DNA of 23,557 nucleotides from a virus: positions 1-23,557 of the IMG/VR virus record IMGVR_UViG_3300045781_000050. The stretch is one strand, 5' to 3'. Position 1 is the first letter of the stretch. The number at the start of each line of letters is the position of its first letter. Shown in pieces: positions 15,841 through 18,170 of the stretch. The position numbers and the translations under genes were made by a program. The notes below the pieces were generated by a model. It saw only the letters and a program-made list of their open reading frames with translations. It was not told where the DNA came from and made no database searches.

Positions 15841-18170
15841 CGGAGAAGGTCGTCTACACGCCTCCGCCGACGATCCGCAAGTTCATCAGGGACTATCGGC
15901 GGCACGAGCTGTTCTACGACTGGATCGTGGGGCCGGTCGGCTGTCTCGCACCGGAGACACGAGTTGTCACCGAGCGAGGACTTGTGCCCATCGCTGATCT
16001 AACTCAGCCAACGCGAGTTTTATCTTGGAACGAGAAGACATATCGATACCAGCTTTCTTTGTGTGGTGGGTCGTTCCGCAAAGGAACAGACTATCTATAC
16101 CGAGTGACAACGCTAGAAGGAGAATTTGACGCAGCCGGACATCACCAGCTTCTTTGCGCAGACGGTAAGTATCGACGAGTGCGCGACCTTCGGGAGGGCC
16201 AAAGCGTTCAAGGATGTTCTGCTTCCCAGAGCGCGACAAACGCTGTACTCTCCCTGCAAGAGTCTCACGTAGATGATCGGCGTTGGTCGGAAACACTCTT
16301 AAATTTGAAAGAGCGTTGTGGATTGTCAAGCCGTCTCGATGGTCGACGACCTCTTCCGGTCGTAGGTAACGGCCTAGGTCTTGCTCCACAACAAGCCGAT
16401 GCTCATACATCAGCTTGGTGTTACGGTGAGTGCGCTGGCGCGCGTGAGGGTGGTCTGCCGATACCGTCACTAGAACGTATCCATCCAGATCGACGCGTCG
16501 GCCACCAGCAAATTGGTGGTTCAGGTCTCCCGGACCTCCCCCCTCACTCCGGGTTGGGAGATTGTACCGAAGCATCAGCCTCCGAACATACCGAGGGGAT
16601 AGCCCCACGAGAGCGGCTATCTCCGTCGATGAGCGGATGCCATCGCACAGAGGGGTCAGTTTGGGAAGATGATCTACCGAGCGCATTTGGTTACTCCAGA
16701 ACCTACAGGACCATATTGTCGATTTGTCGCCGTGCCGTCAAGCAGGATTTTTGGGACATCCAAGTCGCGGACACGCATAATTATGTGACCGAGGACGGCT
16801 GCGTTCACCACAACAGCGGAAAGACCACCGGCATCTTCATGAAGCTGATCTATATGGCGGGGCTGCAGAAGCCCTCCTCGGACGGCATACGGCGCACCAA
16901 GGCGGTCATCGTCCGCAACACCAACCAGCAGCTCAAGGACACCACCTTGGCGTCGTGGAATTACTGGTTCAAGGATGGGCAGGCCGGGACGTGGCGCGAG
17001 ACCGACAAGAAGTTCACGCTGCGGTTCGGCGACATCGAGTGCGAGGTGCTGTTCCGGCCGCTCGACACCGAGGCCGACGTTCAGCGGGTGCTGTCGCTGG
17101 AAGTGACCTTCGCGCTGATCGACGAGTTCGTGGAGATACCGCGCAAGATCATCGAGGCGCTGTCCGCCCGCTGCGGACGCTATCCCGCCAAGATCGACGG
17201 CGGGGCGACCAACTGGGGCATGTGGGGGTCGTCCAACCCCTCGACCGAGGACAACTGGTGGTTCCAGTACCTGCACAAGCAGTGTGACGATCCGAACCAG
17301 AACCTGCCGCCTTCGGCCATCTATTTCAAGCAGCCGTCGGGCATATCGCCCGAGGCGGAGAATATCGAGAACCTCCCCGGCGAGAAGAATTATTACACCG
17401 CCCAGATGGCTGGCAAGTCGGAGAGCTGGGTCAAGCAGTTCGTCGAGTCGGAGTGGGGCTTCTCGGCCTCCGGCAAGCCCGTGGTGCAGTCGTTCAACCC
17501 CAAGATACACCTGCGGAAGGGGCTCATTTTCAACCCGAGGCTGCCGCTGGTGGCCGGGTTCGACCCGGGGCTCGCGGGATCGGCGTTCGTGTTCGGACAG
17601 CTTGATCTGGAGGGCCACCTGAACGTCCTTGGGGAGCTGGTGCAGGTCGGATATGGGGCAAAAAGGCTCATGTCGGAGCGTTTGAGGCCCTATTTGAGGG
17701 CGAAATTCCCGGAATTGAGCCTCGAAAACTTCATTTTGGCCCCCGATCCAGCGGCTGCAAATCGCACCCAGACCGACGAAAAAGCGGTCGTGGACGAGAT
17801 AAAACGCCATTTTCGGTGCGAAATCGAGACCAATAACCGCCTTCCGCTGCGGCTGAACGCCATCGACCACTTCGCCAACACCCTCGTTTTTGGCGGTCCC
17901 GCCCTGCGGATCGACGAGCAGGCGTGCCCGATAGTGGTCCGCGCCCTGCGCGGCGGCTGGAGATACAGGCTGGACGTGAAGCGTGACGCGGTCGCGGGCG
18001 CGGAGCCCGAGAAGAACGCCTACAGCCATCCCGGCGACGGCTTCGGCTACCTCTGCCGCTACTTCCACAGGACCACGGAGCGGGAGCAGCGCTACGGCGT
18101 CGGAGGGGCGCGCATCCAGAAACGATTCACACCTCCGCAGGCGTATGCTACCACTTACCACCAGAGGTGA
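15837..18170 (+). CDS. terL: Terminase large subunit precursor containing an intein
   Basis: Packaging ATPase and nuclease. The precursor is 777 codons; removing the 291-residue intein (15942-16814) leaves 486 residues, normal for TerL. The spliced protein has Walker A GPVG/SGKTT, Walker B LIDEF (D138, E139 at 17121-17126), a motif III-like stretch WGSSNPS, and nuclease-domain acids in VAGFDPGLAG (D285) and ILAPDPAAANR (D346). The intein interrupts Walker A between G35 and S36, so the enzyme is inactive until spliced. GTG 15837 is preferred: AAGG sits seven bases before it and it overlaps the upstream stop as GTGA. ATG 15822 (five codons longer) is the alternative but has no ribosome site. 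It is followed at once by the Tad2-like and portal genes. Confidence 0.93.
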   Translation: MTEKVVYTPPPTIRKFIRDYRRHELFYDWIVGPVGCLAPETRVVTERGLVPIADLTQPTRVLSWNEKTYRYQLSLCGGSFRKGTDYLYRVTTLEGEFDAAGHHQLLCADGKYRRVRDLREGQSVQGCSASQSATNAVLSLQESHVDDRRWSETLLNLKERCGLSSRLDGRRPLPVVGNGLGLAPQQADAHTSAWCYGECAGAREGGLPIPSLERIHPDRRVGHQQIGGSGLPDLPPHSGLGDCTEASASEHTEGIAPRERLSPSMSGCHRTEGSVWEDDLPSAFGYSRTYRTILSICRRAVKQDFWDIQVADTHNYVTEDGCVHHNSGKTTGIFMKLIYMAGLQKPSSDGIRRTKAVIVRNTNQQLKDTTLASWNYWFKDGQAGTWRETDKKFTLRFGDIECEVLFRPLDTEADVQRVLSLEVTFALIDEFVEIPRKIIEALSARCGRYPAKIDGGATNWGMWGSSNPSTEDNWWFQYLHKQCDDPNQNLPPSAIYFKQPSGISPEAENIENLPGEKNYYTAQMAGKSESWVKQFVESEWGFSASGKPVVQSFNPKIHLRKGLIFNPRLPLVAGFDPGLAGSAFVFGQLDLEGHLNVLGELVQVGYGAKRLMSERLRPYLRAKFPELSLENFILAPDPAAANRTQTDEKAVVDEIKRHFRCEIETNNRLPLRLNAIDHFANTLVFGGPALRIDEQACPIVVRALRGGWRYRLDVKRDAVAGAEPEKNAYSHPGDGFGYLCRYFHRTTEREQRYGVGGARIQKRFTPPQAYATTYHQR
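15942..16814 (+). mobile_element. Intein in the TerL Walker A loop, with nested antisense HNH gene
   Basis: In-frame 291-codon insertion with all expected splicing signals. Block A is CLAPETRVVTERGLVPIADL with the catalytic Cys first. A block B-like GEFDAAGHHQLLC carries the His. The C-terminal blocks F and G read DFWDIQVADTHNYVTEDG then CVHHN, with penultimate His and terminal Asn, and the first residue after it is Ser. Exact excision joins GPVG to SGKTT and restores a consensus P-loop. The splicing parts take about 95 residues at the N-side and 40 at the C-side; the middle 150 or so residues of the sense frame have no recognisable domain because that DNA encodes an HNH endonuclease on the other strand. 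The middle is less GC-rich than the flanking terL. Confidence 0.93.
15967..16686 (-). CDS. HNH homing endonuclease, antisense within the intein
   Basis: A 239-codon minus-strand gene, start ATG 16686 with GGAG seven bases upstream. Residues about 18-45 form a helix-turn-helix-like DNA-binding segment (SSTEIAALVGLSPRYVRRLM). Then NHQFAGGRRVDLDGYVLVTV leads into the HNH_3-type core: YEHRLVVEQDLGRYLRPEEV (H96), VDHRDGLTIHNALSNLRVF (H116, N124, N128) and TNADHLRE (H138). All key residues of the His-Asn-His fold appear intact. The last 75-80 residues are antisense to the N-terminal splicing block and look like read-through rather than a domain. Expected role: cutting intein-free terL alleles to spread the element. 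No promoter was identified; expression would need leftward transcription of the late region. Confidence 0.85.
   Translation of the reverse strand: MRSVDHLPKLTPLCDGIRSSTEIAALVGLSPRYVRRLMLRYNLPTRSEGGGPGDLNHQFAGGRRVDLDGYVLVTVSADHPHARQRTHRNTKLMYEHRLVVEQDLGRYLRPEEVVDHRDGLTIHNALSNLRVFPTNADHLRETLAGRVQRLSRSGKQNILERFGPPEGRALVDTYRLRKEAGDVRLRQILLLALSLGIDSLFLCGTTHHTKKAGIDMSSRSKIKLALAELDQRWAQVLAR

Follow-up and report, generated by a model that had tools for sequence, protein, structure and literature searches.

The window analysed here, the whole 23,557 bp of an IMG/VR virus record, carries an open reading frame for the large terminase subunit (TerL) whose Walker A motif is interrupted by an insertion with the features of an intein. 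On the opposite strand of this insertion lies a complete gene for an HNH endonuclease. The features of the locus are collected in Table 1.

Table 1. Features of the terL locus, numbered along the window (a slash marks a splice junction)
Feature	Position	Strand	Evidence
TerL ORF, 782 aa, intein-interrupted	15822..18170	+	Open frame; PHROG terminase large subunit 5e-8; TIGR01547 1.7e-4
Intein, 291 aa (predicted class 1)	15942..16814	+	Inserted between G and S of Walker A: GPVG/C...HHN/SGKT
N-terminal splicing half, intein residues 1-94 (C1, blocks A and B)	15942..16223	+	AF2 pLDDT about 90; sense constraint
Sense linker, intein residues 95-249	16224..16688	+	pLDDT below 50, predicted disordered; near-neutral amino acids; stop-free
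C-terminal splicing half (blocks F/G, ...THNYV...VHHN/S)	16689..16814	+	AF2 pLDDT 85-95; sense-only substitutions
HNH endonuclease gene, 239 aa	15967..16686	-	ATG at 16686, stop at 15967; phrog_10730 E 8.9e-50
Shine-Dalgarno GGAG	16694..16697	-	7 nt upstream of the antisense ATG
N-terminal helix-turn-helix, HNH residues 7-40	16567..16668	-	AF2 helices, pLDDT 70-90; weak Pfam HTH_29 6.6e-3
HNH catalytic core, residues 95-139 (H96, H116, N128, H138)	16270..16404	-	Pfam HNH_3 1.7e-4
Dual-coding overlap, HNH C-terminal tail opposite late block A and block B of the intein	15967..16180	both

The intein and the gene on its opposite strand

What is the insertion in TerL? Its boundaries read GPVG/CLAPET...THNYVTEDGCVHHN/SGKT, and the class-1 intein motifs C1...GHH...THNYV...HHN/S are present in an alignment of 19. 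The sense product scores 17.3 bits against TIGR01443, over the cut-off of 15.6, and matches Pfam Intein_splicing at 2.3e-7, somewhat under the curated cut-off. In AF2 models, for which the alignment rows were the window and IMG/VR sequences only, residues 1-94 and 250-291 form a Hint fold at about 90 pLDDT, while residues 95-249 stay below 50 as a disordered stretch of about 155 residues. Foldseek matched the model to the Npu and Ssp DnaB mini-inteins (Npu DnaB E 5.8e-7, probability 1.00). The predicted disorder and the DnaB matches together make the sense product a mini-intein with a long disordered insert. A class-1 intein should have a Hint fold and sit in frame at a conserved functional site for which a precise empty allele exists, and the element meets both. 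The endonuclease domain in frame that marks a large intein is not met with: no family profile searched, those of Pfam, PHROG and TIGR included, matched the sense intein to an endonuclease, and the linker is neutral and disordered. This agrees with the preliminary description of the locus, which saw no endonuclease motif in the middle of the sense frame. On motifs and modelled structure, then, 15942-16814 is a class-1 intein in the Walker A motif of TerL, with protein splicing itself inferred. An RNA intron at terL was also considered and is ruled out by the clear Hint fold and by the absence of any Rfam match, a group I ribozyme core included, at 15700-17100.

The HNH gene lies antisense to the disordered insert. 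Its product (P0002) matches the PHROG HNH family over residues 8-234, the Pfam HNH_3 match being under the curated cut-off. The four catalytic residues are invariant across 19 relatives, and with the motif and these residues conserved the protein qualifies as an HNH endonuclease. In most relatives of the main family the start codon is preceded by GGAG, GGAGG or similar; the minus strand around the gene showed no sigma-70-like promoter. The core is poorly modelled by AF2 (pLDDT about 35-70), and its best fold match, I-HmuI (1u3e), is not significant (E 0.11). A PDB sequence search with the HNH protein gave no match. Thus the reading frame, the ribosome-binding site, the HNH_3 identity, the intact H/N/H residues and the helix-turn-helix-like head can all be kept as they were first described from sequence. 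Two points of that description need adjusting. The coordinates given for the element are those of the HNH gene alone, the intein itself being longer, and the gene occupies the non-splicing middle of the intein for only about 465 bp (about 16224-16688), its last 200 bp or so running over the N-terminal splicing blocks.

Selection on the two strands

On which strand does selection act? In the nesting phase the sense codon positions s1, s2 and s3 pair with the antisense positions a1, a3 and a2, so codon-position rates reveal the constrained strand. Across 19 distinct inteins the fastest position is s3 in blocks F/G and a3 in the HNH core; the exteins of 11 of these phages, used as a control, gave 0.168/0.107/0.469 for s1/s2/s3. 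The changes between 21 non-overlapping sister pairs were then sorted by what they do in each frame and scaled to mutational opportunity, which gives relative rates for changes silent in sense only (SN) and silent in antisense only (NS). Note that the test counts changes, with the transition weight assumed to be 2, and uses no likelihood model. SN and NS are 50.8 and 9.1 in blocks F/G and 57.3 and 8.6 at the start of block A, and the order is reversed in the HNH core, at 13.7 and 47.8. Two families without the C-terminal tail independently show the same clean strand switch. The outer splicing blocks are selected in sense only, and the HNH core is selected in antisense only. Since the NS rate of the core is near the fastest silent rates elsewhere, the sense linker is nearly neutral except for stop avoidance. 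A counting form of the test for selection on both frames that the preliminary description had proposed finds both strands selected, region by region.

Might the sense frame be open by chance? When the codons of the window's HNH gene were shuffled among synonyms with the protein kept, 5.85 sense stops were expected on average and none of 2000 shuffles was free of them; none is observed, and the other two sense-strand frames over the gene have 8 and 6. All 20 inteins examined have no sense stop against 3.7-7.4 expected by the same shuffling, and their other two frames have 2-13. In 34 free-standing HNH ORFs the corresponding reverse frame has 5.15 stops per 100 codons, and always at least 4. Shuffling and the free-standing genes together rule out chance, and the stop-free frame that had first drawn attention to the locus is confirmed.

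The idea that the antisense frame is no real gene and only a shadow ORF, a by-product of a GC-rich sense gene, retains virtually no credibility: such long antisense ORFs do occur elsewhere in the window, for example opposite 5498-7561, but here the product matches an HNH family significantly and its catalytic residues are invariant, the fast sites of the core are antisense rather than sense third positions, the ribosome-binding site is conserved, and it is this substitution pattern together with the HNH conservation that refutes it. As a separate observation, the window has very long ORFs on both strands at 5498-7561 (+) and 5618-7537 (-), and again at 7586-9973 (+) and 7607-9952 (-). The product of 5618-7537 (-) matches a PHROG peptidase (2e-63), so its plus-strand partner is probably the shadow ORF, unlike the case of the intein.

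A second reading accepts the HNH gene and denies the intein, either because the gene simply interrupts terL or because splicing has been lost and the open frame is relaxed. The modest intein-family scores, the neutral and disordered linker, and annotation pipelines that label such terL genes as broken would suit it. However, sense constraint acts on blocks A, B, F, G, C1 and HHN/S, all of them conserved; AF2 predicts the Hint fold with a pLDDT of about 90; no distinct intein tested has a sense-frame stop; and the exteins are intact and constrained. We consider this reading very improbable.

Distribution and origin of the nested arrangement

Is the arrangement peculiar to one virus? The preliminary description had called for a search for inteins with an HNH gene on the reverse strand. 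A search with the antisense HNH protein found 25 viral loci, in every one of which the HNH gene is antisense within an open TerL frame. A profile search detected 486 relatives, and 80 of these were retained; bacterial genome records yielded 22 further loci, 6 of them nested like that of the window; and searches started from outlying lineages added nested loci. With a nested locus defined as an HNH gene in the same phase inside a host frame of more than 450 aa, there are 147 further nested loci (129 distinct HNH sequences), and 147/147 are in one phase. Intein end motifs were checked in the main family, in the L111 and L110 groups and in examples of the L257 group, and not by eye in all 147. 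The HNH protein of the outlying locus L025 matched only itself and a twin contig when used as query. The more distant HNH genes (L112-L127 and others) stand alone, outside any intein-bearing host frame. Together with the strand-switching selection and the interrupted Hint fold, the one-phase loci bear out the central claim of the preliminary description, an HNH gene antisense inside the intein that carries it.

There is also variation in size and domain make-up. Longer HNH ORFs of about 280-350 aa are seen in L090-L103, L107 and L109, some with inteins of about 336-344 aa, and the E. coli prophage MEI003 and L105 apparently have two HTH repeats ahead of the HNH core.

The hosts of the nested elements include Terminase_3 and Terminase_6 proteins and one helicase-like ATPase, and the P-loop contexts include GPVG, GPFG, AGFG, GGYG, GGAG, AGNQ and GGNR. 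The exception, at L232:1472-3973, is an element of this kind in the P-loop of an SNF2/DEAD-like helicase (YYLD/C...NHN/CGMGKT) instead of a terminase. Cultured carriers include the Pectobacterium phages Ymer, Abuela and Taid, in which TerL is annotated as a hypothetical protein and the HNH gene is unannotated, and Pseudoalteromonas phage PHS3 (L028), in which HNH is annotated and TerL only beyond it. The paper on the Ymer genus makes no mention of an intein or HNH. Prophage carriers are found in E. cloacae DSM 26481 and E. coli MEI003 (L208); the terL of MEI003 is labelled incomplete or a pseudogene, yet its frame is open for 802 aa. That terL is called a pseudogene in MEI003 and started after the intein in PHS3 is because the antisense HNH gene was given priority.

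Only one of the three possible antisense phases is used in all 147 loci, and none is markedly easier to keep open: stops occur at 4.65-5.15 per 100 codons in every reverse frame of the 34 free-standing HNH genes. That all lineages share a phase which is not much easier than the others points to one ancestral insertion; re-association is not excluded. That an HNH gene invaded the intein backwards, as had been suggested, remains the natural inference from sequence comparison, because the nearest relatives outside are free-standing HNH genes and because sister inteins at the same site carry a LAGLIDADG-like endonuclease in frame.

Empty sites and mobility

Does the element move? The C-extein of the window has 80 viral TerL relatives, 54-82% identical. 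Classification was possible for 77/80, of which 72 have an empty site (GPVG/SGKTT), 1 has the same module and 4 have another intein; the nearest empty-site relative is 82% identical. In the sister phages L152, L155, L173 and L193 an unrelated intein of about 305 aa sits at the same TerL site, with LAGLIDADG-like motifs in frame (ADGHIP...DG, read by eye) and the end VTGN. This P-loop site in TerL appears to be contested by two homing systems. In E. coli, a sensitive search with the terL query matched 783 genomes, one of which (MEI003) covers at least 80% of it; the matches listed under MEI003 cover about 54-56%, the share expected of a gene without the intein. The prophage site that is occupied in MEI003 is empty at the same position in ET729.

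HNH identity is higher than extein identity in 90% of 2753 pairs, in one example 59% against 17%. The similarities of exteins and elements are nevertheless correlated (Spearman 0.70), and some of this reflects vertical descent. An HNH identity usually above that of the host TerL indicates that the module is mobile among hosts, as far as sequence comparison can tell; homing is inferred indirectly, from this and from the sporadic occupation of the site, without cleavage data.

Could the nested gene be real and serve some purpose other than homing, such as the exclusion or damage of other phages, or antisense control of terL? Antisense transcription could lower terL expression, and free-standing HNH enzymes of phages can be directed against competitors. 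But homing predicts what is found, namely an insertion that is always exactly in the P-loop, common empty sites, and a module more similar than its hosts are; and exclusion and homing can coexist. A role other than homing thus seems quite unlikely, and a homing element is preferred.

A tail encoded opposite the splicing blocks

What happens where the HNH gene runs over the N-terminal splicing blocks? The tail encoded there is predicted as helices (AF2 pLDDT 80-89). Within the phage collection its sequence is found inside the window's HNH family only; it is absent from the L025, L110 and L111 groups and from the free-standing HNHs, whose matches for the most part stop at or before about residue 168 and in the furthest case at 197. 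Among the 19 distinct inteins no codon position is fastest in the tail overlap, and s3 is fastest again beyond the HNH stop. In the 21 sister pairs SN is 14.5 and NS is 14.3, so that both classes silent in one frame are suppressed 3-4 fold relative to the 50.8 and 47.8 of blocks F/G and the HNH core, and changes nonsynonymous in both frames (NN) stand at 7.2. Where the HNH C-terminal tail overlies splicing blocks A/B, both strands are selected at once.

Slow evolution of this kind might instead come from a signal in the DNA itself, such as a promoter, an RNA structure or the target of the enzyme, and it is true that the tail has no assigned function and that the test is single and approximate. 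However, the pattern is codon-phased, with changes nonsynonymous in both frames the rarest class; the helices of the tail are predicted with confidence; the constraint ends with the HNH stop codon, beyond which sense third positions are fast once more; the families without a tail show no such slowing; and there is no Rfam match. This explanation is unlikely, and dual coding is the reading we follow.

The simplest origin for the tail is overprinting of the splicing domain. That the other groups have lost it is also possible, though less likely given that their antisense frame there has stops (shown for L025). Putting the distribution and the tail together, we think there is a good, though not compelling, case that inteins with an independent antisense homing endonuclease gene are a widespread and ancient class, one large branch of which overprinted a new endonuclease domain de novo, leaving about 200 bp that encode two folded and selected domains on opposite strands.

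Proposed mechanism and comparison with known systems

We put the probability at roughly 0.87 that the element is a mobile intein whose splicing and homing functions are encoded on opposite strands, although no transcript, translation, splicing or cleavage data are available. On this proposal, the plus strand would encode a TerL whose P-loop holds a mini-intein fold of the DnaB type, and excision of the intein would restore GPVG-SGKT. The middle of the intein would serve in sense as stop-free disordered filler only, and in antisense as a complete HTH-HNH homing endonuclease gene with its own ribosome-binding site, its expression being inferred. The enzyme would most likely cut intein-free terL copies in their P-loop DNA, a specificity likewise inferred, and repair from the intein-bearing copy would spread the whole module among phages that co-occupy a cell. 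As to the order of events, which is also an inference, the module may have arisen once in its present phase, and in the window's branch the HNH ORF would later have been extended by about 70 codons into the antisense of blocks A/B, an extension that would have given the folded and selected dual-coding tail.

How does this compare with known systems? Canonical large inteins are alike in the Hint fold, the sporadic distribution and the place of the endonuclease between the splicing halves, but their LAGLIDADG or HNH endonuclease is in frame, whereas that of the window has a gene of its own on the other strand, outside the spliced polypeptide. The element is taken to work like a homing intein, by inferred splicing and homing, without the in-frame endonuclease that defines large inteins. 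Split inteins of fractured genes also keep splicing and endonuclease in different translation units, with a separate endonuclease gene between the halves; there, however, the host gene is broken in two and joined by trans-splicing, while the terL of the window is one continuous frame. With I-HmuI and other phage HNH homing endonucleases the protein shares the HNH motif, a DNA-binding HTH and the phage homing context; it differs in being nested antisense in an intein and in its tail, which is not found outside its own family.

Inteins in the TerL P-loop are themselves well known from mycobacteriophages (PMC5050341). The ShiLan domain, an out-of-frame HNH hidden in a phage methylase (Arsenault et al. 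2025, PMC11855218), is alike in that its homing insertion, in frame and free of stops, hides an HNH gene in another frame. Its HNH is on the same strand, in the third frame of a host methylase, whereas that of the window is on the opposite strand of a Hint domain in terL; and the ShiLan domain is without splicing domains and so is no intein. The element of the window, with its HNH on the other strand and a splicing domain present, is not of the ShiLan type. A homing endonuclease opposite the strand of a self-splicing element is known from group I introns, where I-DsqI of Didymium, antisense in a nuclear intron, is expressed and active (PMC9548176). The splicing element there is an RNA ribozyme in rDNA and not a protein intein in terL, which means that no reading frame for a protein has to stay open and that dual coding does not arise. 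The ShiLan domain and these group I introns are the closest precedents; no description of an antisense endonuclease gene in an intein was found in the literature searched, in which preprints were not fully covered. Inteins of this kind appear to have gone unnoticed, and in cultured phages and prophages they are often missed, with terL called a pseudogene or a hypothetical protein or with the HNH gene omitted.

What does the arrangement mean? Inteins are taught as a splicing domain fused to an in-frame endonuclease, and here the two lie on opposite strands of the same DNA. With such coding, splicing and the supply of endonuclease could differ in time and amount, although there are no transcript data. 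What is more, the locus shows antiparallel dual coding in nature with unusual clarity, and its tail is a protein domain apparently born by overprinting, for which outgroups lacking the domain are at hand.
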